DNA of 32,629 nucleotides from positions 1 to 32,629 of IMG/VR virus record IMGVR_UViG_3300030106_005081. One strand, given 5' to 3'. The notes below the pieces were generated by a model. The model saw only the letters and a program-made list of their open reading frames with translations. It searched no databases and had not been told where the DNA came from. A program made the position numbers and the translations under genes. How positions within the stretch are numbered: the first letter of the stretch is position 1; each line of letters opens with the position of its first letter. The DNA comes from a virus. Below are positions 3,465-27,589 of this stretch, piece by piece.

Positions 3465-4891
3465 AGTTGATACTCCCTTAATTTCTTTTTTGCTCTCAGT
3501 TTATATAAATTATTTCTCGCTCTCGTGATCCCGACATACCACACTCTATGCTCTTCATCTTGTTTGTCAACACTTGATTTAATTCCTTGTTGAATGGTAC
3601 GACCTTGGTGCAAAGATAAAATTACATTGTCTTCTTCACCACCTTTTATTGCATGAATAGTTGACAGCCATATTCTTGCTTTGTCTTTTAAATTTTCTTT
3701 TGATGCAATTAAATTTCTTAAATATAAAATTTCTTTTTGATCAGCTATAAATTTATCATACCATGGAACTTTAACATCCCAGTCTGCATTAGGTATATAT
3801 TCTTTTACTGCGCTAATTTCTTTATCATCTAATAATTCATCCATGGTCCATTTAGTATATGCAACTGCAGCCTCGTACATACCAACTTTAAAACTTTTAC
3901 CTTTGTTACTTTGATAATAAAAATTTTTACGTTTTAAATCTTTCATTATATCTAATAGATTGCTTTTAGTTCTTGTAAGTATTAACCATTTACCTTTAGT
4001 CAAATCAACCTGGTTAAGATCTGAGATATAATGTGACTCTCCCTCATGACTTCTAGGTCTATAAAATTTTTTCTTTCTTACACCTTCTATCTTCATAATA
4101 GGATATCTTGATTCTGCTTGGACAGACATGGATATACGACGTGATTGTTTTAAGACAATCTCTCTTGCAGGTTCTTTTACAAATCTTTTTACATCAGCTC
4201 CAGCCCATGCATAAATAGCTTGATCATCATCACCAGCTAGATACATTTGTTCACAATGATATTTTAATTTATCATATAGTTGCCATTGCAATGGTGATAA
4301 ATCTTGAGCCTCATCAATAAATATAGCTTTGAATAATGGTATTTTATCAGAGTTTAAAACTGCTTTTACAATATCATTAAAGTCAAAAAGATTATTTTTT
4401 TCTTTGTATATTTGAAGATTTTTATAAATGTGATTAAGCGTGTCAAAGTCGTTAACTTGCCTTTTATCATGTTCGTTTAAATCAAACTCTTGTCTTATTG
4501 TTATATCTTTGTTTATTGACCTTTGTATCATCTGAAAGTATGGGTTATTACAAGTTAAAAAGTGTGTCTCTTCTTCATTGTATTTATCTGTAAATGATAC
4601 TCTAACATTTAATTTTTTACCTAAATCCTCATAGTGATACGGCTGCATAATATCTTCTTCACTTAATCCAAGTAAATGATAACAGAATGCGTGTATAGTT
4701 TGAAAATATGGAACTTCTTTTTCAGATACATTAATTCTTTTACGTGCTTCTTCTGCAGCTTTTCTGGTAAATGCAAAATAACCTATCTTGTGTAAAGGCA
4801 CACCTACACGTTCGTACGCTTTTACACGTCTAATTAATCTAAACGTTTTACCTGTACCAGGTGGTCCGTAGATTTTATTGATCTTTTCCAT
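3461..4891 (-). CDS. SF1 DNA helicase, UvrD/PcrA-like
   Basis: A superfamily 1 helicase with the motifs in order: Walker A GPPGTGKT right at the N-terminus, Ia FAFTRKAA, Walker B FIDEAQD, motif III LAGDDDQAIYAWAGAD, motif V STIHAIKGGEED and motif VI WYVGITRARNNL. At about 476 residues it is shorter than bacterial UvrD, with reduced accessory subdomains. I start it at the ATG ending at 4891, just before the Walker A strand. A longer frame begins at 4960 and has a fair GGAG, but it would overlap the preceding gene by 86 bases and adds residues unlike the family. It is the only processive-type helicase candidate in the replication operon, since no DnaB-like protein is seen, so it probably serves the fork or primer-strand unwinding. 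Confidence 0.93.
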   Translation of the reverse strand: MEKINKIYGPPGTGKTFRLIRRVKAYERVGVPLHKIGYFAFTRKAAEEARKRINVSEKEVPYFQTIHAFCYHLLGLSEEDIMQPYHYEDLGKKLNVRVSFTDKYNEEETHFLTCNNPYFQMIQRSINKDITIRQEFDLNEHDKRQVNDFDTLNHIYKNLQIYKEKNNLFDFNDIVKAVLNSDKIPLFKAIFIDEAQDLSPLQWQLYDKLKYHCEQMYLAGDDDQAIYAWAGADVKRFVKEPAREIVLKQSRRISMSVQAESRYPIMKIEGVRKKKFYRPRSHEGESHYISDLNQVDLTKGKWLILTRTKSNLLDIMKDLKRKNFYYQSNKGKSFKVGMYEAAVAYTKWTMDELLDDKEISAVKEYIPNADWDVKVPWYDKFIADQKEILYLRNLIASKENLKDKARIWLSTIHAIKGGEEDNVILSLHQGRTIQQGIKSSVDKQDEEHRVWYVGITRARNNLYKLRAKKKLREYQL

Positions 4892-5576
4892 TGGCTTTCT
4901 TAAACCCATCTTTGAGTGAGCCTGCCCAGCCATATGTTCCGTGATGTGTTGTTTTTCCATCTACTACTCCATAAAATTTAAAACCTGATTTTTTAATTAA
5001 ATTACAAAAATTAACATCTTCACCCCACCAAGTTCCATCTTTACCAAAAGTGGTATCCCAAAAATTGTAAAAGTATGAATTTGCTTTTTCAGATATTATT
5101 TCTTTTTGTTTTATTTTAAGATGTGGATTATCTTTAATTAATTTTTCATAAACCTTCCTGTGAATCAATGTTAAACCTGCAGGTCCAGCTTTTAATTCTA
5201 CAATACCTTTTTGATCTATTTGAATATTCATCGGGTCTTCAAATTCTACAGAAAACTTAACCACATTATCTTGTGTTTTTTTTCTGTAAGGAACACAAAT
5301 TGCATCTTTTTCAGATAAAATCATACGACCTACAACATCAGGTTCGAATTCTAAATCTGCATCTACAAACAATTGATAATCAAAACCTGATTCTAAAAAC
5401 ATTGCTGTTAATACATTTCTTCCGTAACCAACGTAAGGACATTTAAAAGTTCCTATCTCTGCCGGTATTTTTGCAAGCGTAAATTTATTAAATAATTTTA
5501 CCAACGATAGACAAGTTGATACTTGCATTAAATCATAAGTTGGCATTGATATATAAATCTTAGGTGGCTTCTTCAT
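4875..5576 (-). CDS. Glycosyltransferase, GT-A fold (replication-side copy)
   Basis: The 233-residue protein opens with IYISMPTYD, then YGRNVLTAMFLES, and has a DxD nucleotide-sugar/metal motif at residues 72-74 (LFVDADLEF). The late segment WWGEDVNFC resembles the acceptor or catalytic loop of GT-A enzymes. This layout is repeated in the protein at 17824-18708 (QGRNLCVAEML, LFIDSDIDF, YFGEDFGFC), so the two are paralogues or share a subfamily. AAGGAG lies 8 nt upstream, and the start overlaps the primase stop by ATGA. Finding it inside the replication operon is unusual. Possible substrates are modified DNA bases, host surface glycans or phage proteins; the sequence does not decide. Confidence 0.8.
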   Translation of the reverse strand: MKKPPKIYISMPTYDLMQVSTCLSLVKLFNKFTLAKIPAEIGTFKCPYVGYGRNVLTAMFLESGFDYQLFVDADLEFEPDVVGRMILSEKDAICVPYRKKTQDNVVKFSVEFEDPMNIQIDQKGIVELKAGPAGLTLIHRKVYEKLIKDNPHLKIKQKEIISEKANSYFYNFWDTTFGKDGTWWGEDVNFCNLIKKSGFKFYGVVDGKTTHHGTYGWAGSLKDGFKKANGKDQ

Positions 5577-17823: not shown

Positions 17824-18708
17824 TTATTTGATTTTTTTACTATCGTCAACCTGTTTTAAGTTGTCAAAGAACCTACCACAGAACTGATGTTCGCCAACAT
17901 GGGTTATATAATCCATGATATATAGATATACTTTACCACCCATATCGCCCCATCTTTGGCAAAAACCAAAATCTTCACCAAAATAACGTTTAGTTTCTGT
18001 GTCGTGAATAGTGTCAAAAAAGTTATAAAAGTTTGGTTTCTTAACCTCTTTACCATTAATATTAGTAGGTTGAAATATTTCTAACTCAGGGTAATGTTTA
18101 ATCATCTTTTCTAATACTTCTCTTTTAATTAACATACAGCCTGTAGGAGCGTGGGTTGCCTCTACAATACCTAATTTAGATTCAATGTGATTTTGATCTT
18201 CTAGTTTAATTGGAAACGTATATCCAGGTCTTTTAAGTTGATCTGGATTTTGAGCTTTATCTTTTTCTTGAAATATTTTATCCCAATCTAATGATTTCAT
18301 TGGATAAGGACATGCTATAACATCTTTGTTAGCTTTTAACATAGTTTCAATAGTTTGAAAATTAAAGTCAATATCAGAGTCAATAAACAATAAATGTGTA
18401 TAACCATCTTCATGATTTAACATTTCAGCCACACATAAATTTCTACCCTGTGTAACCAAAGACGATTTCATTAAAGTAAAACTAACTAATATTTTTCTCA
18501 TTAAACAATCTTGTTGAAACTTTAATAATGCTTGTGTGTAATGAATAGAACACTCACTATGCACAGGAGTGCATACCATTATTTTCCATGGTGATTTAGA
18601 TTCTGGTTTAGGATCCGATAAATCTATAACTTCAGCTTTAGTAGTAGATTGCTGAATAGTTTGATAAGTGTCTTCGTTGAACCAGATAGGTTTATTTGGA
18701 TTTTGCAC
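17824..18708 (-). CDS. Glycosyltransferase, GT-A fold (tail-side copy)
   Basis: The 294-residue protein has an extra N-terminal 40 residues, then WKIMVCTPVHSECS, QGRNLCVAEML, the DxD motif D110-S-D112 (LFIDSDIDF), APTGCMLIKREVLE, and YFGEDFGFCQRWGDMGG near the C-terminus. This series matches the enzyme at 4875-5576 block for block. The start is a GTG with AAGGAG 6 nt upstream, and it overlaps the preceding GT4-type enzyme by 17 bases. The pair probably acts on the same glycan or on a phage or host surface component. The acceptor and sugar are not readable from the sequence. Confidence 0.85.
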   Translation of the reverse strand: MQNPNKPIWFNEDTYQTIQQSTTKAEVIDLSDPKPESKSPWKIMVCTPVHSECSIHYTQALLKFQQDCLMRKILVSFTLMKSSLVTQGRNLCVAEMLNHEDGYTHLLFIDSDIDFNFQTIETMLKANKDVIACPYPMKSLDWDKIFQEKDKAQNPDQLKRPGYTFPIKLEDQNHIESKLGIVEATHAPTGCMLIKREVLEKMIKHYPELEIFQPTNINGKEVKKPNFYNFFDTIHDTETKRYFGEDFGFCQRWGDMGGKVYLYIMDYITHVGEHQFCGRFFDNLKQVDDSKKIK

Positions 18709-19639
18709 TAATTACTCCTTTTAAAAATGTAGTCCACTGCATAGCTATTTTATTCCAATTGTAATAAATATGCGTGTATCTAGATTGTGAATCTAAATGA
18801 TCATGTATTTGTTTTTGGTCTAATGTATGTGAGGCTTGTTCTATACCAAAGCCAAACTTTTGTGCTAACGCTCTATGATTAGAATCATATGGCACGTACA
18901 TTGGAAACTCTGCTCCGGTTTCATACAAAGCACCTAAGTCATCGACAATACAATATAAACCTGCTGCCATGCATTCAAGCAAAGATATACAAGATGTTTC
19001 TTCAAAGATACTAGGGTAAACATACATATGATAATTTTTTAAATTATCTTTTATGTACTGATTAGATTTATAACCAATGTAATTTACATTAGGTAATTTT
19101 TTAGCTTGTTCATAAAGTTCTCTGTACTCATGATCATTTTGATCATAAAATTGTTTACCATAAACTTCTGTAGATGAATATACATCTAAAGTAACTAAAG
19201 GATTTTTTACTAATTGCATTGCACCTAATAACACAGACAAACCACGCCAAGGTGTATTTTGGTGTATTATTTTTATAGGTTGACCTTTTTGATATGGTTT
19301 AGCTTGTTCTATTTTATCAATACCATTTTTAATAACCACAGATCTATTTGTGGGTATGTTAAAATGATATCTAAATTTTTCATATGTCCAATGTGAATTA
19401 AAAACATACCAGTCATATTTATTATGATTGGCTGGATTACTAAACCAGGGAGCTAGATTAGGTTGATCGTAAGAATTTTTTTGCCAAAGTATATTTGGTT
19501 TGTTTGGATGCAAAGGTATTTTTTCTGGAACTGAGGTACAAATTTCAACTTGATCTAATAATGCATTATCAACGTGTTTTCTTAAATAATCAAATTGTAA
19601 TTCTGTTCCTCCTTTAGGGTCTTGATTTCTTATTTTCAT
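18692..19639 (-). CDS. Glycosyltransferase, GT4-type (GT-B fold)
   Basis: The 315-residue enzyme has the donor-binding half of GT-B glycosyltransferases: VVIKNGID, IIHQNTPWRGLSVLL, YVYPSIFEETSCISLLECMA with the E-x7-E pair (EETSCISLLE), then AAGLYCIVDDLGALYETG. The N-terminal domain is short and starts directly with KGGTELQFDYL, the GG-x-E acceptor-side loop, so the first beta strand seen in full-length GT4 enzymes is largely missing. AAAGGA lies 6 nt before the ATG. It overlaps both neighbours, the UPF0489-like gene upstream and the GT-A enzyme downstream, forming one cargo block inside the structural operon. Confidence 0.88.
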   Translation of the reverse strand: MKIRNQDPKGGTELQFDYLRKHVDNALLDQVEICTSVPEKIPLHPNKPNILWQKNSYDQPNLAPWFSNPANHNKYDWYVFNSHWTYEKFRYHFNIPTNRSVVIKNGIDKIEQAKPYQKGQPIKIIHQNTPWRGLSVLLGAMQLVKNPLVTLDVYSSTEVYGKQFYDQNDHEYRELYEQAKKLPNVNYIGYKSNQYIKDNLKNYHMYVYPSIFEETSCISLLECMAAGLYCIVDDLGALYETGAEFPMYVPYDSNHRALAQKFGFGIEQASHTLDQKQIHDHLDSQSRYTHIYYNWNKIAMQWTTFLKGVISAKSK

Positions 19640-20126
19640 TTACGATCCTTTCTAATATTTTAAATGCAATAATCGCCTCTGCAGCTAATGCATAATCAGG
19701 ACTACAACATATAAAAATTTTGTCAAATTTTTTATTTTTTATATAACTTAAATTATGATCAAAGTAATAAGATTTTAAATTGTCTAAACGATTAATTAAT
19801 ACATGGTGTGAATTTGGATTATTAATCCAAAGATAATTTATCTTTTTTTTAAAAACATTGGACAAATGAAATAACCAATTACCTTCATTTAATTTATTAT
19901 CTAACTCATTTTTATAACTAAAGTCGTGATGATGATCTATGTTAATTAAATTGTATTCATCATATCCGTGTTCAAACATTGGATACATGGTATCATGAAC
20001 TAATGAAGTAACTACATTATCATGAGTATATAATAAAGGTATTACAAAATTTAATAATTCTTCTTGTTGTTTTAAAGAAATTATCCAATCACAATCTACT
20101 GATAATATATCAAGTTTTTTTGTCAT
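19614..20126 (-). CDS. UPF0489/arginase-like protein, 170 aa
   Basis: Key segments are ILSVDCDWIISL (D11-x-D13), NLINIDHHHDFSY with D64-x-H66-x-D68, EGNWLFHL, and IFICCSPDY near residue 140. The D-x-H-x-D triad and the separate D-x-D pair are the two metal-binding motifs of the ureohydrolase/arginase fold, and the GNW segment is as in UPF0489 proteins. Established knowledge: some UPF0489 members are peptide arginases that turn Arg into ornithine in ribosomal peptides. The assignment rests on short motifs, so the exact family is moderately certain and the substrate unknown. It sits between a His-rich small protein and the glycosyltransferases, overlapping both. Confidence 0.65.
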   Translation of the reverse strand: MTKKLDILSVDCDWIISLKQQEELLNFVIPLLYTHDNVVTSLVHDTMYPMFEHGYDEYNLINIDHHHDFSYKNELDNKLNEGNWLFHLSNVFKKKINYLWINNPNSHHVLINRLDNLKSYYFDHNLSYIKNKKFDKIFICCSPDYALAAEAIIAFKILERIVNENKKSRP

Positions 20127-20874: not shown

Positions 20875-21701
20875 TAATAACCTGCTCTTCCTCTACTTGT
20901 ACGCGGTGAAAACTGACCACTACCTACTGATGTGCCTGCATCATCTGCACGATCAGTGCTAAAACCACCTCTATCATTTGTAAAACCTTGGTCTCTAGCA
21001 CTTTTATAAACATCTGGCATAGCTTTCTGTGCTCTTTCAGCTTGTTTACGTTCTCTTCTTTTTTGAAGAAATTCCATTAAAGTTCTTGATCGACCAAAAT
21101 CAGATCCTTGTATTCTTTGATTTAAGCCAGATAATGATTCTAAACCACCTCTAATTAAATTAAAAGGTGTAGGAACTCCTTGTAAAAATTCAAATAGTTT
21201 AGCAATACCACTTTTAGTTTCTGTAGCTTTATCTACATCCTCTTCATCATCTGGTTCATTAGCAACACCAAAAGAAGTATCAAAACCTAATGACTTAGGT
21301 GCTTGACTCATGATGCCTAAATTAGGATAATACAAATCTTGAAACATAGTGGAAGCAGAAACAGGAGGAACTGGTGCTACAAAATTATTAGATGATGTGT
21401 CTGTATTTATAGGAGAAAAATAATTAATATCTTCTGCCATCTCAGCCATAGATCTAAATGGATATCGATTTGTTGTAATATTAGGCTTACCTGTAATAAC
21501 ATTAAAATCTGGTTCTGCACCAGCAGCAGGTGGGAAAAAGAAGTTTCCTATTTTTTGTAAGAAATTTGTTTTTTCTGGTTGTTGTTGAACAGCTGCTAGA
21601 TAATCTTCTGCTTGTTGTCTAATCTCAGGTGTATCGCTATTTAACATAGCTTGTAAGTTTTGGTCTGATATACCTATTCCGTAACTAATTGGTGTTGCCA
21701 T
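20874..21701 (-). CDS. Virion-associated protein of unknown function, 275 aa
   Basis: The 275-residue protein begins MATPISYGIGISDQNLQAML and contains the hydrophobic patch FLQKIGNFFFPPAAGAEP. A Pro/Ser-rich linker follows, then a helical part (IAKLFEFLQGVPTPFNLIRG), and the C-terminus is a basic, Gly/Arg/Ser-rich tail. No enzyme motif is visible. It starts at the stop of the gp10-like gene (TAATG) with GGAAGAAG before it, so production is tied to that tail protein. Disordered ends and position suggest a minor tail or ejection component. Confidence 0.72.
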   Translation of the reverse strand: MATPISYGIGISDQNLQAMLNSDTPEIRQQAEDYLAAVQQQPEKTNFLQKIGNFFFPPAAGAEPDFNVITGKPNITTNRYPFRSMAEMAEDINYFSPINTDTSSNNFVAPVPPVSASTMFQDLYYPNLGIMSQAPKSLGFDTSFGVANEPDDEEDVDKATETKSGIAKLFEFLQGVPTPFNLIRGGLESLSGLNQRIQGSDFGRSRTLMEFLQKRRERKQAERAQKAMPDVYKSARDQGFTNDRGGFSTDRADDAGTSVGSGQFSPRTSRGRAGY

Positions 21702-23665
21702 TATCTTCTTCCATCCGGTTGTGCGTCTAATCTTAATGTGCCGTATCTCCAGGTTTCACCTGTACCATCATTTTCTATTTTAATAGATACAAGTCTTCCT
21801 CGAGCTCGAGTGTCTACTTTATCAGTGGTTTTGGTAATTGTAAAGGGTCCAAGAGGTGAGCTAACTGCTACATCATCTGGATAAGAACTTACTAATAAAG
21901 TTACTTTTGCATTACCTTCTTGATATTTAAAGTCAGGTATAAAACGTCTTACAGCCATAAAAAATTCACCATCTCCTCTGTAATCTACAATACCTGTTGA
22001 TTGACCTAGAGCGCTACGTCTTGATGTTATATCCCAATCTCCTGATCTAATAAATGCAGGGATAGCTGTGGTTGCTGTGCTATTAACTTGATCTGTGCCT
22101 GTTTCATGTTCATAGTAAATACTAGCTCCATATTTATTTGTAATTCCTAATATGTCAGGAAATACAGGAGTGTCTGTGTCTCCATAATCTGTAGCGTAAG
22201 GATTATCAAATACACTTTGATCTTGATATGTTGTTCTATCTAACGATGATGTTGTCCAACAATTTTCTGAATAGTTGTAAGTAACACATCTGTCTATTTG
22301 TTCAGATCCATCTTTTGGATAAAACCAATTTACTTCAGTATATAAATTATTAGCCCCTGCAAAAATAACGTCACTTGAATTAAAGTTTAATCCTAAATTA
22401 TCTCCATCAGTAGTAAATACAAAATCTTCTACAAGTGATGGTAATGATTTAACCGTACCATCGAATGCAAAAAATCCACCCTGTGATCCCATCCAAAATA
22501 CAGCACCATTTACGAATGTGGCTGCATGTTGTCCAATACATCCACAATTAGTACCAACTTGTCTAACACTAAATGTAAATGGTGGTCCTACAAACTGAAT
22601 AACATATGCAGCAAGATCAGTTATAACAAACACGTAGTCTTTACCTTGTATGGCTGCCCTTATTTCATTTCCTGTATCTAATCTAAATGTACCGGCTGTA
22701 TTGGTTTCTGTTGGCGTGTATGTGTTTAAATCTTCTTGATTAGAAAATCTTACAAACATTGGATCTTGTGTAGATGGATCACCAATAGTTGTCTCTGTTC
22801 CAAAATGAAATAAGTGTCTGTCACGATCTGATACTAATGTAAATCTAGTGGCCGTAGGATTGTTACCAGTTGCAAAACCTGATGTGGTTAATGATGCTCT
22901 AATTGTTCTAGGGTTTGTTGCACCTGCATTCCATGTAAACGTTCTACCATCAAATATAGTTGCAACTAATACTTGACCAAAGTTATCAAGACTCCAGTTT
23001 CCTGGAGCTAGAATTACGTCACTAGTCGCTCTGGCAGTTCCCCATGTAGATGTATTCCAAGTTGATGTACTCCAACCATAACCTGTTGTTTGAGTGGTTG
23101 GCCCTACTTCAACATACGGATTTACGGTCACTGCTCCTGCAGCACTCATACCTGTGCCACCTTCATTTCTTGAAGCCTGAACGGTAAATTTATCTATGTC
23201 AGGGGTTGTTAATATTTCATAAGATTGCTGTAATTCTGCTGCTGTAAAATCAGATGCACCTGTAACCGTGACTCCAGAAAGAGTTACGTATCGTCCAACT
23301 GCTAATCCATGCGATCCTTTATTTATAGTTACAACATTAGATCCATTAGTAGTTGTTAAAGTGCCTCCAGTGATGGCTGTATCTAAAGGTGTAATGTCAT
23401 AAAAATCATTACCATAGTATAAAAATAAACCTTGCGATGTGCCTATGGCAGCATACTTCTCGCCAGCAAAACTTGAAAATGCAACTTGTGCCCTGGCTGC
23501 TCCCGGTAAAGTTTTATTAGCGGCGGTTAATTGTAACCACCCACCTATTTTTTCAGGCATACCATATCTAAATCTTACAAAATCGCCATCAGTCCATTGA
23601 CCTTCTGCCCCTGAATCTGTGTCTTGTTTATTGAATCCTGCCTTAAATTTTAATTTCTGTAGCAT
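21701..23665 (-). CDS. Tail/head-closure protein, P22 gp10-like
   Basis: The 654-residue protein opens with LKFKAGFNKQDTDSGAEGQW and then TDGDFVRFRYGMPEKIGGW (residues 25-43). This is the characteristic start of gp10-like packaged-DNA stabilisation and tail-hub proteins of podoviruses. The rest is beta-propeller-like with repeated strand pairs (SQGLFLYYGNDFYDI, GSQGGFFAFDGTVKSL, TNKYGASIYYEHE). In P22 this protein closes the portal channel and supports the tail needle and spikes. It has no good Shine-Dalgarno and follows a 45-nt gap with a hairpin after the oxygenase genes. Confidence 0.75.
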   Translation of the reverse strand: MLQKLKFKAGFNKQDTDSGAEGQWTDGDFVRFRYGMPEKIGGWLQLTAANKTLPGAARAQVAFSSFAGEKYAAIGTSQGLFLYYGNDFYDITPLDTAITGGTLTTTNGSNVVTINKGSHGLAVGRYVTLSGVTVTGASDFTAAELQQSYEILTTPDIDKFTVQASRNEGGTGMSAAGAVTVNPYVEVGPTTQTTGYGWSTSTWNTSTWGTARATSDVILAPGNWSLDNFGQVLVATIFDGRTFTWNAGATNPRTIRASLTTSGFATGNNPTATRFTLVSDRDRHLFHFGTETTIGDPSTQDPMFVRFSNQEDLNTYTPTETNTAGTFRLDTGNEIRAAIQGKDYVFVITDLAAYVIQFVGPPFTFSVRQVGTNCGCIGQHAATFVNGAVFWMGSQGGFFAFDGTVKSLPSLVEDFVFTTDGDNLGLNFNSSDVIFAGANNLYTEVNWFYPKDGSEQIDRCVTYNYSENCWTTSSLDRTTYQDQSVFDNPYATDYGDTDTPVFPDILGITNKYGASIYYEHETGTDQVNSTATTAIPAFIRSGDWDITSRRSALGQSTGIVDYRGDGEFFMAVRRFIPDFKYQEGNAKVTLLVSSYPDDVAVSSPLGPFTITKTTDKVDTRARGRLVSIKIENDGTGETWRYGTLRLDAQPDGRR

Positions 23666-23686: not shown

Positions 23687-23720
23687 ATCTCAATTATGGA
23701 AGAGAGATATTTATTGAGAT
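23687..23720 (-). other. 8-bp hairpin spanning the stop of oxygenase copy 1
   Basis: ATCTCAAT and ATTGAGAT form a perfect 8-bp stem with an 18-nt loop. The 5' arm on the minus strand includes the first bases of the TAA stop. There is no U-tract on the minus strand. It fills the 45-nt gap before the gp10-like gene and may mark the end of the oxygenase segment on the message. Confidence 0.35.
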
Positions 23721-24241
23721 TTTATAACATAATTAATTGATATTCGCCAGTAAGGTATTCTTTGATTAGGTCCTACACCCTCGTGTATTTCGTTACTTTT
23801 AAATATTAAAAACTTACCAGGTTCAAAATCTATTTTATTTTCTTCAACTTGCAAAGCCCCTCCCCATTCTTTTGACCATTGTGGAGTTAGAAAACCTAAG
23901 ATAGTTATTGCATCACTTTCATTTGAATCTACATGAAACTCAGTTAAAGAAGTTTCGTTTTTTGCACCTAGATGAATTCTTTGAATATGACGAGGTAATT
24001 CATAATTATATTTATTGTAAAAACTTATATTTATTCTTTCATATAAAGAAGTAAAATATCCATTCCAATATGGATTAAAGATATTTTCATTATCTTTTAC
24101 TACTAAACCAGGGAAGGTGCAAAAGTCTCCACCCGCAGATGATCTAGCTAAATTCCAGTCATTACAATTTATTAAACCTTTATATAAACTAAATAATTCT
24201 TTTTTTAATAAAATGTTGTCTACGTATTTAATTTTTGTCAT
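23711..24241 (-). CDS. Fe(II)/2-oxoglutarate oxygenase, copy 1
   Basis: The 176-residue protein has the double-stranded beta-helix signature: H103-x-D105 (EFHVDSNESDAITILGFLT), the turn EWGGALQVEE, PGKFLIFKSNEIHEGV with the distal H153, and R166 (YWRISINYV) to bind 2-oxoglutarate. The facial triad is complete, so it should be an active dioxygenase. Its substrate (protein side chain, nucleic acid or small molecule) cannot be read. It is the last of three minus-strand oxygenase-like genes and overlaps copy 2 by 14 bases. An 8-bp hairpin begins at its stop codon. Confidence 0.88.
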   Translation of the reverse strand: MTKIKYVDNILLKKELFSLYKGLINCNDWNLARSSAGGDFCTFPGLVVKDNENIFNPYWNGYFTSLYERINISFYNKYNYELPRHIQRIHLGAKNETSLTEFHVDSNESDAITILGFLTPQWSKEWGGALQVEENKIDFEPGKFLIFKSNEIHEGVGPNQRIPYWRISINYVIKSQ

Positions 24242-24716
24242 AATTATAAAATATGTTTATCGTGTGTCTAGGTGAACTTTTTCCTAACGCTTGTAAATCA
24301 GTATGAACATTATTTTTTCCATCAAAAAATAACGCTCTGTTATTTATAAACCCTAAATATGTATTTAATTTATTTTTATAATAAAATCCAGTTCCATTAT
24401 AAACAAGTTCATCACCTTTTAAATATAGTATAAAATTATAGTCTTCTTCATCCTCATGCGACATAACTTTTTTAGCATTGTGTCTTAAATGATAAGATCC
24501 TTTATTAACTTTTAAATTAATATTTGGAAAAAATTGTTTTTTTATTTTTTTAAAAAGCCATTCATTTTCTGAATTTCTTTCAAACTCATGTCTAAATCCA
24601 AAATTTCCGTCATCATTTTTTATTGCTTTATAATTTATCTTATTTAAATTATTAAGCAAAATGCTTAATTCTTTTTTATTTAAAAAGTTATCTTTTATTT
24701 GTATGGTAGGCAACAT
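24228..24716 (-). CDS. Fe(II)/2-oxoglutarate oxygenase-like, copy 2
   Basis: The 162-residue protein shows SYHLRHN, then H87-x-D89 (MSHEDEEDYNFILYL), YLGFINNRALFFDG, and H138 (NNVHTDLQAL) followed by R150 (SSPRHTINIFYNY). These supply the H-x-D...H triad and the 2-oxoglutarate arginine, so the active site looks intact although the rest has diverged strongly from copies 1 and 3. I start at the ATG overlapping the previous stop (TAATG at 24716), not at a TTG five codons earlier. Substrate unknown. Confidence 0.75.
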   Translation of the reverse strand: MLPTIQIKDNFLNKKELSILLNNLNKINYKAIKNDDGNFGFRHEFERNSENEWLFKKIKKQFFPNINLKVNKGSYHLRHNAKKVMSHEDEEDYNFILYLKGDELVYNGTGFYYKNKLNTYLGFINNRALFFDGKNNVHTDLQALGKSSPRHTINIFYNYDKN

Positions 24717-25234
24717 TACGAATATTTCCAATTAAAACTTATTCCATATCTAGGCTTATTAGTTTTATTTTTTTCATTTCCATGTGATAAAAATGATGTA
24801 AACATGGCAAAACTCCCGGGTTCAGGTTCTAAAACCTCTTCTATTTCTGGAAAATATAATTTTTGAGGATGTTTAGTTAGCATAATAGTGCCAGACACTA
24901 TGGCTGGTTTATGGTCATGGTATCTTGAATGATCGCCAAAATTTTGTTTAAATCCCCATGCGTCATCTAAAAACCATGGCAAATTTTCAGTAAAATTATA
25001 TTTAGTAATCATGTCACCAAGTGGCATTATCATTTTAATAAATTTTGGATCATTTACAAAATATTTGTAAGAAGTCATTGGACTTATTAAATTAGTAAGA
25101 AAATTTTGATTATCTTTGTGTTTTATACCTTTTTCAATACGTTGGATAAAATAATCCACATCTACTTTTAATTTTCCTTTTACAAAAAAATAATCTCTTT
25201 CTATTTTTGATTTTACAAATTTATCAACTTTCAT
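24716..25234 (-). CDS. 2-oxoglutarate oxygenase-like protein, copy 3 (variant iron site)
   Basis: From the ATG at 25234 the product has 172 residues; a TTG at 25282 would add 16. The sequence WGFKQNFGDHSRYHDHKPAI, then VSGTIMLTKHPQ, EPEPGSFAMFTSFLSHGNE and KPRYGISFNW matches the family of putative 2OG-Fe(II) oxygenases whose first iron motif is HxH (lSGxxYL type) rather than HxD. The distal His and the Arg are present. It is first of the minus-strand trio and faces the plus-strand oxygenase across a short divergent promoter region. Whether it binds iron without the usual acidic ligand is open. Confidence 0.78.
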   Translation of the reverse strand: MKVDKFVKSKIERDYFFVKGKLKVDVDYFIQRIEKGIKHKDNQNFLTNLISPMTSYKYFVNDPKFIKMIMPLGDMITKYNFTENLPWFLDDAWGFKQNFGDHSRYHDHKPAIVSGTIMLTKHPQKLYFPEIEEVLEPEPGSFAMFTSFLSHGNEKNKTNKPRYGISFNWKYS

Positions 25235-25267
25235 GTCTTTATTATGTTTACAAAAATTAATGTATAA

Positions 25268-25296
25268 TTTACTTTTTTTCAAGACAAAAATATGAT
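25268..25296 (+). promoter_or_regulatory. Promoter of the plus-strand P4H-like gene
   Basis: TTTACT (25268-25273) is followed after 17 nt by TATGAT (25291-25296), matching 4 and 5 of 6 sigma-70 consensus positions. The predicted start near 25303 leaves a 10-nt leader before the ATG. The box lies in the gap between two divergent oxygenase genes. Confidence 0.45.
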
Positions 25297-25312
25297 ATAG
25301 CCCATTTTAATT

Positions 25313-25912
25313 ATGAAAGAAAAAACGGTTAATATAACTAATTTCATTGGAATATACGACAATTACATCACTGACCAAGAATGTGATAAGGCTATTAAAT
25401 TATACGAAGATCAAAATAAATTTAACAGAACGGTAAACAGAATTGGATCAGAGAATATGTCTATATTACATAAACAAGATCAACAATTTTTTGCTAATTC
25501 TTCTAATGTAGATGTGTGGTGGGAAAATTTAAAAACTATGATGCATAACTACAATTTAGCATGGAATCACTATTCTAAAAATGTAGGAGCTATAGAAGCT
25601 TACGGGAATGTAAGTGCTTTTAATTTTACTTGTTTAAAAATTCAAAAAACTTTACCAACAGAAGGTTATCATGTTTGGCATCTTGAACATGGTAAAGGTT
25701 TTGAAAATGAAGCAAGAGCTTTTGTTTTTTCTATATATTTAAACGATGTAGAAGATGGAGGCGAAACAGAATTTTTACATTTTTCAAAAAGAGTAAAACC
25801 TAAAAAAGGTAGAATAGTTATATGGCCAGCTGGTTTTCCATACGTGCACAGAGGTAATCCACCTTTATCAGGTGAAAAATATATATTAACGTCTTGGATG
25901 ATGTTACGATGA
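25313..25912 (+). CDS. Prolyl 4-hydroxylase-like 2OG-Fe(II) oxygenase, copy 4
   Basis: The 199-residue protein has the P4H-type fold: GYHVWHLEHG with H123-x-E125, then FVFSIYLNDVEDGGETEFLH, RVKPKKGRIVIWPAGFPYVH with H179, and K189 (GEKYILTSW) at the 2-oxoglutarate position. Glu replaces the usual Asp of the facial triad, which can still bind iron. The pattern matches marine-phage P4H-like enzymes, which probably hydroxylate protein side chains. It is the only plus-strand gene in the structural half. A promoter (TTTACT, 17 nt, TATGAT) lies just upstream, and its end overlaps the convergent 133-residue gene. Strand and promoter suggest a separately acquired cargo gene. Confidence 0.9.
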   Translation: MKEKTVNITNFIGIYDNYITDQECDKAIKLYEDQNKFNRTVNRIGSENMSILHKQDQQFFANSSNVDVWWENLKTMMHNYNLAWNHYSKNVGAIEAYGNVSAFNFTCLKIQKTLPTEGYHVWHLEHGKGFENEARAFVFSIYLNDVEDGGETEFLHFSKRVKPKKGRIVIWPAGFPYVHRGNPPLSGEKYILTSWMMLR

Positions 25913-26305
25913 TGAATATGATGTAGGTCTTGCACCTAATCTAGCTATTTTATCAGATTCACTTTCAGCAGAAACTTCATTACCTGACTCATCAAAAGAT
26001 GTAAGGTTATCATTATCCCAATCAGATTGTAATCTAGCTAAATGTGCAGAGTCCCATCTATCAATAAAATCTTGAAAGTCGCCTAAGTTTGCATCTTCCC
26101 AAGTAGAGTGAGGAGTTGAATCTCTGTACTCAACCGTGTCGCTAGGTTCAAATGTTCCATATTGAATAGCCCAAATGTTATTCCATTTAGCTAATCCCCA
26201 AAAATCATTATCATTTAAAATTTTGTAAGCACCTGCACCATCTCCAGATTGTTTTATAATTTTTTTATCTTCGAATACTACGGTCCATGTTGAATTTGTT
26301 GCCAT
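25904..26305 (-). CDS. Small protein of the tail-fibre block, 133 aa
   Basis: The 133-residue acidic protein is rich in Trp, Asp and Ser (TWTVVFEDKKIIKQSG, DFWGLAKWNNIWAIQYGTF, DFIDRWDSAHLARLQSDWDN) and ends in a disordered Ser-rich tail. AGGAG with a 5-nt spacer precedes the ATG. It follows the collar-domain fibre protein, the usual place for a fibre assembly chaperone or a tip-associated protein, and its acidity fits a chaperone; I do not recognise a family. Confidence 0.7.
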   Translation of the reverse strand: MATNSTWTVVFEDKKIIKQSGDGAGAYKILNDNDFWGLAKWNNIWAIQYGTFEPSDTVEYRDSTPHSTWEDANLGDFQDFIDRWDSAHLARLQSDWDNDNLTSFDESGNEVSAESESDKIARLGARPTSYSSS

Positions 26306-26313
26306 ATTTTCTC

Positions 26314-26886
26314 CTATGTCTTAATAATATAAATTACTGCTAAATAAGGTTGAACAACTGAAGTCGAATCTCCAGTAAAAGTTGCACTCATGTTGTGAGA
26401 GTGACCTGTCCCTGATCCAGCGTTGTTAGTGTTGTTATTTGCTTCCAATAAAGGATAAGATGAAGCTTGCGGTCCTTGATATCTGTGAATTGAACCTCTA
26501 GCACTACCACCATGATCGTGTTCAGCTAGTTGTGCTTCTGATAAAGTTGCATTTGCTGTTGAACCTCCAACGTTTCCAGTTGACTGAACCGTGTTCGCTC
26601 CACCAGTTGATGCTAAAGCTTTAGTTCCAGATTTACCTATTACAACGTTATCTTGTAAATCAGGTAGATTAAAAGTTGATGCACCATCTCCAGCTCCATA
26701 AGTTGTACCTACGATAGCAAATAAAGCAGAGTAAGTTGATCTTGAAACAGCTGCTCCATTACATTCTAAAAAACCTGTTGGCACTGAAGAAGAAGACCAC
26801 GGCACAATAGTTGCTGTAGGAATTCCTTCGATACCAGTAAGATTTGCTCCTGAAAAATCGTATTTTGTTGCTTCGTAATTTGACAT
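26314..26886 (-). CDS. Tail fibre protein with phage tail collar domain
   Basis: The 190-residue protein has the collar signature: ATIVPWSSSSVPTGFLECNG, then SALFAIVGTTYGAGDGASTF and NLPDLQD. It ends as collar-type fibre tips do: EHDHGGSARG, GTGHSHNMSATFTG and VVQPYLAVIYIIKT. The two HxH units (HDH, HSH) are in the region where T4 gp12 and gp37 bind metal ions. I start at the ATG at 26886 with GGAG 7 nt upstream. An ATG at 26922 would overlap the preceding gene and adds unlikely residues. The protein probably forms the receptor-binding tip of the trimeric fibre. Confidence 0.88.
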   Translation of the reverse strand: MSNYEATKYDFSGANLTGIEGIPTATIVPWSSSSVPTGFLECNGAAVSRSTYSALFAIVGTTYGAGDGASTFNLPDLQDNVVIGKSGTKALASTGGANTVQSTGNVGGSTANATLSEAQLAEHDHGGSARGSIHRYQGPQASSYPLLEANNNTNNAGSGTGHSHNMSATFTGDSTSVVQPYLAVIYIIKT

Positions 26887-26887
26887 A

Positions 26888-27589
26888 TTATTTCTCCGTG
26901 TAAGTCCATCCTGTTGTAGCATCGCCTGAGAATACTAATCCAAAAGCTGCGCCTTGCGTATTGACCGTGAGATCAGATGCTGCGTTAGCTATATTAGATC
27001 CATTTCTTCCGACCGTCAATGCATTACTATTAAAATCATAACCTTGATCGACAAAATGCACTTCATCGCCAGTTGCAGGTGAGGCAGGTAGCGTTATTGT
27101 TACTCCTCCACCATTTGTGTTTACTAAAAGCTGAGCTCCAGCTTGAACCGTTTCAGCTGCAGATACTACTCTCCATTTTCTGTACTCATTTACTTTTTCA
27201 ACATTAGTTCCATCAGAATATAATGTATAACAATTACCCTCACATAAAAGAACACCTGTTCCTGAAGAAGTTTTAAAAGTTAAAGTGTTTCCTGCATGAT
27301 CACAATTGTTTTGTACAAAATAAGTTTTTTCAATTGAATCTGGAATAGTCACCGTTCTGTTGGCCGCTAATGTTCCTGTTAATCTAATAACATCGTTTTT
27401 ACCATTTGATAAAGCACCATTAGTAAAAGTTAAAGATCTGTTAGCGTTAGTTAAGTTAAAAGTTGTAAAGCCACCAATAGCTTGTTCTAAAATTAGTAAG
27501 TTTGTATTTGTAATTTGACCCCAAGTTCCCGAGTTTTCACCGGTTGCTTGAACCGTAAGTTTTAGGTTAGCAGATGTTGAATTAGCCAT
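26888..27589 (-). CDS. Tail fibre shaft protein, 233 aa
   Basis: The protein starts MANSTSANLKLTVQATGENS then GTWGQITNTNLLILEQAIGG, a typical start of phage fibre proteins. It continues with beta-strand and turn repeats (RTVTIPDSIEKTYFVQNNCD, GNTLTFKTSSGTGVLLCEG, AGAQLLVNTNGGGVTITLPA). It probably makes the shaft or adhesion segment paired with the collar protein downstream, which follows the stop at once. AAGGA sits before the start. A terminator-like hairpin separates it from the repeat-rich gene upstream, yet the gene can be read by run-through. Confidence 0.82.
   Translation of the reverse strand: MANSTSANLKLTVQATGENSGTWGQITNTNLLILEQAIGGFTTFNLTNANRSLTFTNGALSNGKNDVIRLTGTLAANRTVTIPDSIEKTYFVQNNCDHAGNTLTFKTSSGTGVLLCEGNCYTLYSDGTNVEKVNEYRKWRVVSAAETVQAGAQLLVNTNGGGVTITLPASPATGDEVHFVDQGYDFNSNALTVGRNGSNIANAASDLTVNTQGAAFGLVFSGDATTGWTYTEK

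Follow-up and report, generated by a model that had tools for sequence, protein, structure and literature searches.

Marine phages commonly carry, as 'auxiliary' genes, oxygenases that use Fe(II) and 2-oxoglutarate (2OG). Most T4-like cyanophages carry one to five 2OG oxygenases (Sullivan 2010, PMC3037559), and cyanophage S-SCSM1 carries 24, the function of which was not specifically investigated (PMC9602691). In the HTVC023P-type pelagiphages, eight non-orthologous 2OG-Fe(II) oxygenase families have been reported, often nearby though 'not adjacent', with a ferrochelatase treated as a partner enzyme of the oxygenases (Wittmers et al. 2022, PMC9599517). That a marine phage, the HTVC027P/HTVC023P group included, may have several oxygenases is already known. 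What is new here is an ordered locus of adjacent oxygenase genes with a universal anchor (P4), the turnover of the cargo beside this anchor, and a reinterpretation of the 'ferrochelatase'.

The HTVC027P/HTVC023P phages are podoviruses whose hosts are Candidatus Pelagibacter (SAR11), the commonest bacterium of the ocean, and the HTVC027P-type phages infecting SAR11 are a widespread and abundant group of ocean viruses. The window analyzed in this work is the whole 32,629-nucleotide stretch of IMG/VR record IMGVR_UViG_3300030106_005081. Its tail genes place this 33-kb viral contig in the HTVC027P/HTVC023P pelagiphage group; the structural protein at 21701-23665 and P4 are each 81% identical to their counterparts in HTVC027P (gp75 and gp73, respectively).

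Results

The locus and its surroundings contain the following features.

18692-19639, minus strand: glycosyltransferase of the same tail module, PF00534 (7e-10), possible partner
21701-23665, minus strand: left border, virion structural (stabilisation-type) protein, phrog_3287 (3e-80)
23711-24241, minus strand: P1, 176 aa, 2OG-Fe(II) oxygenase-like, HxD/H/R, PF13640
24228-24731, minus strand: P2, open reading frame with a TTG start at 24731, likelier 24228-24716 (162 aa), HxD/H/R
24716-25282, minus strand: P3 open reading frame, likelier 24716-25234 (ATG at 25234), PF13759-type, HxH/H/R
25235-25312, no strand: divergent gap between P3 (from its ATG start) and P4; the P4-proximal part is also present in relative L004, which is without P3
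25313-25912, plus strand: P4, predicted prolyl-4-hydroxylase-like oxygenase, HxE/H/K, PF13640
25904-26305, minus strand: right border, conserved 133-aa protein without family match, convergent with P4 and overlapping it by 9 bases
26314-26922, minus strand: Phage Tail Collar domain protein, PF07484 (2e-22)
26888-27589, minus strand: fibre/tail protein used as survey bait, phrog_31104 (4e-49) and weak tail-fibre families

The four adjacent genes at 23711-25912, three on the minus strand and one on the plus strand, exist as open reading frames as given in the preliminary description, which had also named a gp10-like neighbour. Family search found no such neighbour; the gene at 25904-26305 matched no family and is followed by the Collar-domain gene. 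The likelier starts of P2 and P3 are internal ATG codons, at which the relatives of P2 and the close relatives of P3 begin. A promoter scan gave as many matches as expected by chance, and the promoter-like match at 25268-25296 was no better than chance. Elsewhere in the window, the phrog_1574 protein occurs in two diverged copies, at 4875-5576 in the replication region and at 17824-18708 beside the glycosyltransferase, the latter with a weak match to the Anp1 glycosyltransferase family.

To assign the proteins, we compared them with family models and solved structures. P1 and P4 matched PF13640 (1.8e-7 and 2e-11, respectively) and P3 matched PF13759 (4e-8), all over the curated Pfam cut-offs; P3 matched TIGR02466 only below the cut-off of that model. 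P2 had no reliable named family in Pfam, PHROG or NCBIfam, giving weak and irrelevant matches only. The sequence of P4 resembles the solved prolyl 4-hydroxylases 3itq and 5hv0 (8e-9), and P4 is classed as prolyl-4-hydroxylase-like on this predicted relationship, while the search of solved structures with the sequences of P1, P2 and the 'ferrochelatase' family (see below) returned no relevant relatives. The AlphaFold2 model of P2 (pLDDT 90, pTM 0.87) best matched PHD2 and the viral collagen prolyl hydroxylase (vCPH) of PBCV-1, with Z of about 15 over 147-159 residues. The P3 model (pLDDT 92) best matched 3bvc/2rg4 and viral and bacterial prolyl hydroxylases (Z 16-17); 3bvc and 2rg4, two uncharacterised proteins of solved structure, are nearest to P3 by sequence profile as well. 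P2 is thus predicted from its model to be a double-stranded beta-helix protein of the 2OG-Fe(II) oxygenase type. Both modeled proteins had this fold, and a different fold of copy 2 or 3, considered at the outset as a possible refutation, was not observed. On the basis of predicted fold for P2 and P3 and of family match for P1, P3 and P4, it is almost certain that all four proteins have the oxygenase fold, as had been proposed for each of them.

The active-site motifs assigned to the four copies were confirmed at the residue level: H103xD105, H153 and R166 in P1; H87xD89, H138 and R150 in P2 (numbered from the internal ATG); H122xH124, H167 and R178 in P3; and H123xE125, H179 and K189 in P4. 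The iron-binding HxD/E...H triad and the distal Arg or Lys for 2OG are present in P1, P2 and P4, and the four motif residues of P2 are invariant among its close relatives. P3, on the other hand, is without the canonical 2-His-1-carboxylate triad and has HxH instead. This HxH is invariant in an alignment of P3 with its relatives (36 rows), and solved protein 3bvc aligns with HxH as well. Likewise, the HxE of P4 is common to its T4-like cyanophage homologues from Syn33, S-RS29, QB2 and S-SSM5. Judged from these alignments, HxH in P3 and HxE in P4 are family traits and not variants evolved at the locus.

Since P1 to P4 have no significant mutual similarity (they cannot be aligned with each other by BLAST, the best E being 0.3), they are not recent duplicates. 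The preliminary description had argued the same from the different iron motifs; its conclusion holds, but the motifs belong to the families and did not diverge locally. When the window was compared with the near relative L004, dN/dS was 0.06 for P1, 0.10 for P2 and 0.13 for P4, and these three genes are under purifying selection. For P3, dN/dS was about 0.3 against more distant relatives (54-56% identity).

To compare the locus between phages, we made two surveys of the interval bounded by the stabilisation-type protein on one side and the collar/fibre genes on the other, covering mainly the closest relatives in one collection, often as contig fragments. Families were assigned by clustering and by profile match to families with Pfam-checked representatives. 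In the first survey, in which P4 served to fetch most of the loci, the 48 non-redundant intervals held 1-9 oxygenase-fold open reading frames each (mean 3.5) in 40 distinct arrangements; locus L083 had nine oxygenases in a row, including diverged members of all four families. The universality of P4 in this set was put aside as a bias of fetching with P4, and the survey was repeated with the fibre gene (26888-27589) as the only bait, blind to the oxygenases. P4 was present in every one of the 50 non-redundant complete intervals so obtained, which held 1-6 oxygenases (mean 2.82), with at least two in 42 and at least four in 13. Oxygenases in related phages are therefore more than random singles, an outcome that had been considered beforehand as a possible refutation; one to nine of them stand at exactly this place.

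The contents of the interval were shuffled between loci. Accessory families were gained and lost, with some recurring pairs (for example c0 then c4), and the same four close homologues were together in no other locus fetched. The closest relative, L004, has P1, P2 and P4 at 96%, 93% and 92% identity, respectively, is without P3, and carries another oxygenase across P4 instead; P1-P3 therefore have not accompanied P4 as one unchanging group. The block of P1, P2 and P4 recurs in contigs L003 and L004 at 92-96% identity. A fixed multi-step cassette, as first suggested from the window, was rejected on the shuffled gene content in both surveys. We consider it very likely that the locus is a gene-exchange site in which P4 is the fixed anchor and P1-P3 are swappable cargo.

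Other enzymes are among the cargo besides these oxygenases. A carbamoyltransferase (3e-39), a methyltransferase (3e-10), a JmjC_2-type protein (6e-8) and a sulfotransferase-like protein (3.5e-4, just under the cut-off) were found at the site, the transferases in a minority of loci. Downstream cargo often begins right at the conserved P4 3' end and overlaps the stop codon of P4. When relatives of P2 and P3 were fetched with their own queries, they were mostly in the same neighbourhood, deeper clades included. In the window, P1-P3 are encoded on the tail-gene strand, immediately upstream of the stabilisation-type gene, and P4 is divergent; in the relatives, the tail genes are on one strand and P4 and most accessory copies on the other. 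In HTVC027P, a close relative in culture, three genes fill this site, also opposite the tail genes: gp74 (P3-type), gp73 (P4) and gp72 (PF13759, 1.7e-12). Only gp73 is annotated as an oxygenase, gp72 and gp74 being annotated as hypothetical, and whole-genome scans of HTVC027P with PF13640 and PF13759 gave matches at this site only.

The neighbouring genes vary as well. The Collar-domain gene is present in one to three copies in relatives, and two or three diverged copies are beside the oxygenase locus in L010, L033, L038, L298 and L322; receptor-binding genes therefore vary at the same place. The glycosyltransferase at 18692-19639 was kept in all five of the loci that reach that far.

Several single loci deserve a separate description. 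L006 (4594-5550) has a 318-aa open reading frame in which P2 is joined in frame to the oxygenase next to it; since the two genes are separate in the near relative L005, the fusion arose either by deletion or by an assembly join. The cargo of L008 (10154-10606) includes phrog_9155, a protein of the CxxCxxCC type that may chelate metal. A 170-aa DHHHD-motif protein without family match is encoded in the window at 19614-20126 (minus strand), between small genes and the glycosyltransferase, and is inside the oxygenase array in L204 (4921-5409) and L230. The gap between g116 and the glycosyltransferase holds P2 relatives in L182, L184, L186 and L190, and the two slots, this gap and the oxygenase array, appear to share cargo. 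When bacterial and archaeal genomes were scanned for a cellular source of P2, none was found; the single relative obtained is on the phage-like L254 (NZMJ01000026.1, with the label Maricaulis sp. MAG). This contig of 7.6 kb contains the phage tail module, with structural and fibre proteins 76% and 88% identical to those of the window, and most likely represents a piece of a pelagiphage genome that was assigned to a bacterial MAG by binning. A PADLOC search for anti-defence genes was uninformative, with P1 and P4 matching only a generic '2OG' model associated with Cas.

The 'ferrochelatase' family found beside these genes (HTVC023P gp67, which is L090 5289-5909; L091 7054-7710; phrog_2954) has members of 170-218 aa. 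It did not match the ferrochelatase models of Pfam and NCBIfam or the sequences of solved ferrochelatases. Instead, its members share an invariant oxygenase-like HxD...H motif, and profile comparison aligned the family with that of P2 over 128 columns at a probability of 79%. The phrog_3531 family, also named ferrochelatase, is matched in its first half by the phrog_2954 family and in its second half by P4, suggesting a natural fusion. The comparison suggests that the database 'ferrochelatase' beside these genes is another oxygenase-like protein.

Discussion

Our best explanation, to which we give a probability of about 0.5, is that the locus is an exchange locus of oxygenases whose most likely substrates are tail or fibre proteins of the same phage. 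We infer the catalysis, the time of expression and the targets of P1-P4. In the infected cell, each protein would hydroxylate a single type of substrate with Fe(II), O2 and 2OG. P4 is fixed at the site, and P1-P3 are interchangeable, being lost and gained beside it among a pool of oxygenase-fold families and occasional carbamoyl-, methyl- and sulfotransferase-like genes. The likeliest targets would be residues on the tail or fibre proteins of the phage itself, the hydroxylated residues might later be glycosylated by the conserved nearby glycosyltransferase, and swapping of the enzymes would change the chemistry of the exposed surface.

A virion tail protein as the main target is favoured, tentatively and at somewhat less than even odds, because the site is constantly beside tail genes, because the P4 homologues of several cyanophages are among virion genes (between the major capsid gene and a tail-completion gene), and because the glycosyltransferase is conserved in the same module. 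On the other hand, the oxygenase repertoire did not correlate with the sequences of the collar, fibre, stabilisation-type and 133-aa proteins (Mantel r -0.11 to 0.08, all p > 0.14); since a tight match between enzymes and fibres would predict a correlation, this null result counts against a virion target, and co-variation of the repertoire with the neighbouring tail proteins was given up as support for fibre modification after the Mantel and partial Mantel tests were negative. The window also has no GXY run of at least five repeats, which counts against a virion target and rules out a collagen-like substrate in the window. Late co-transcription with the tail genes is not evident, because P4 and most accessory genes of the relatives are on the opposite strand. 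The HxH of P3, in place of the canonical triad, likewise counts against our explanation. A stronger form of the idea, a combinatorial post-translational modification array for tail proteins in which a fixed hydroxylase and rotating hydroxylases and transferases are maintained by recombination, is improbable in our estimate; if true, it would diversify the receptor-facing surface as a chemical counterpart of diversity-generating retroelements.

The uncoupling of repertoire and tail genes, together with the opposite strand of most copies, would fit with enzymes that act on host proteins, such as translation factors or ribosomal proteins, and redirect the infected cell, the tail-side site being a tolerated insertion. 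One of the fold neighbours is the Pseudomonas prolyl hydroxylase whose structure was determined together with EF-Tu, and a JmjC_2-type gene is among the cargo, a family that includes ribosomal oxygenases. However, the P. putida-like fold is common to much of the superfamily and names no substrate, and the position beside the tail genes is constant across deep clades; we regard host targets as possible but rather unlikely. Glycans of the cell surface or the virion are an unlikely target as well. Hydroxylation, carbamoylation, sulfation and methylation could alter receptors against co-infecting phages or decorate the virion, and carbamoyl-, methyl- and weakly sulfotransferase-like genes do occupy the same slot, with a glycosyltransferase and a possible second one conserved in the module. 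Yet such transferases are in a minority of loci, and the structures that P2 and P3 match best are for the most part peptidyl-prolyl hydroxylases, though the fold does not fix the substrate.

That the enzymes mainly consume 2OG or oxygen and so shift host metabolism has been proposed for cyanophages (PMC3037559) and would agree with multiple oxygenases per genome, but one efficient enzyme would suffice for this purpose, and the many divergent, swappable families suggest substrate specificity, so that we consider it very unlikely. An accident of assembly or gene decay might be suspected behind a run of four genes in an IMG/VR contig, given the variable content and the in-frame fusion in L006. 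This reading is largely refuted, and almost certainly wrong, with the P1-P2-P4 block recurring in two other contigs, with purifying selection on the genes, and with the same site filled in cultured HTVC027P. For the preferred reading of tail or fibre modification and for its rivals, gp72-gp74 of this cultured phage make the question of the target specifically testable.

The oxygenases of Wittmers et al. are from the same phage group; in the locus described here, by contrast, the oxygenase genes adjoin one another in runs, at a single defined site that P4 anchors universally, and the 'ferrochelatase' family appears to be oxygenase-like too. The T4-like cyanophages, like the pelagiphage locus, have many divergent PF13640/PF13759 oxygenases per phage. 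Their P4 homologues (cluster T4-GC 240) share the HxE of P4 and are among virion genes in several phages, but in the cyanophages looked at the oxygenases are single or paired among other genes, unlike the long one-site runs of pelagiphages. PBCV-1 vCPH and PHD2 rank among the solved structures with folds nearest to that of P2 and, together with 3bvc/2rg4, to that of P3; they differ in having only about 10-19% identity to the phage proteins, and the window lacks the collagen-like repeats. Exchange hotspots of phage accessory genes likewise have fixed flanks and an anchor with swappable cargo. Unlike these hotspots with their mixed anti-defence genes, the pelagiphage locus holds cargo mostly of one fold and chemistry, and is an exchange locus specialised in oxygenase-type enzymes.
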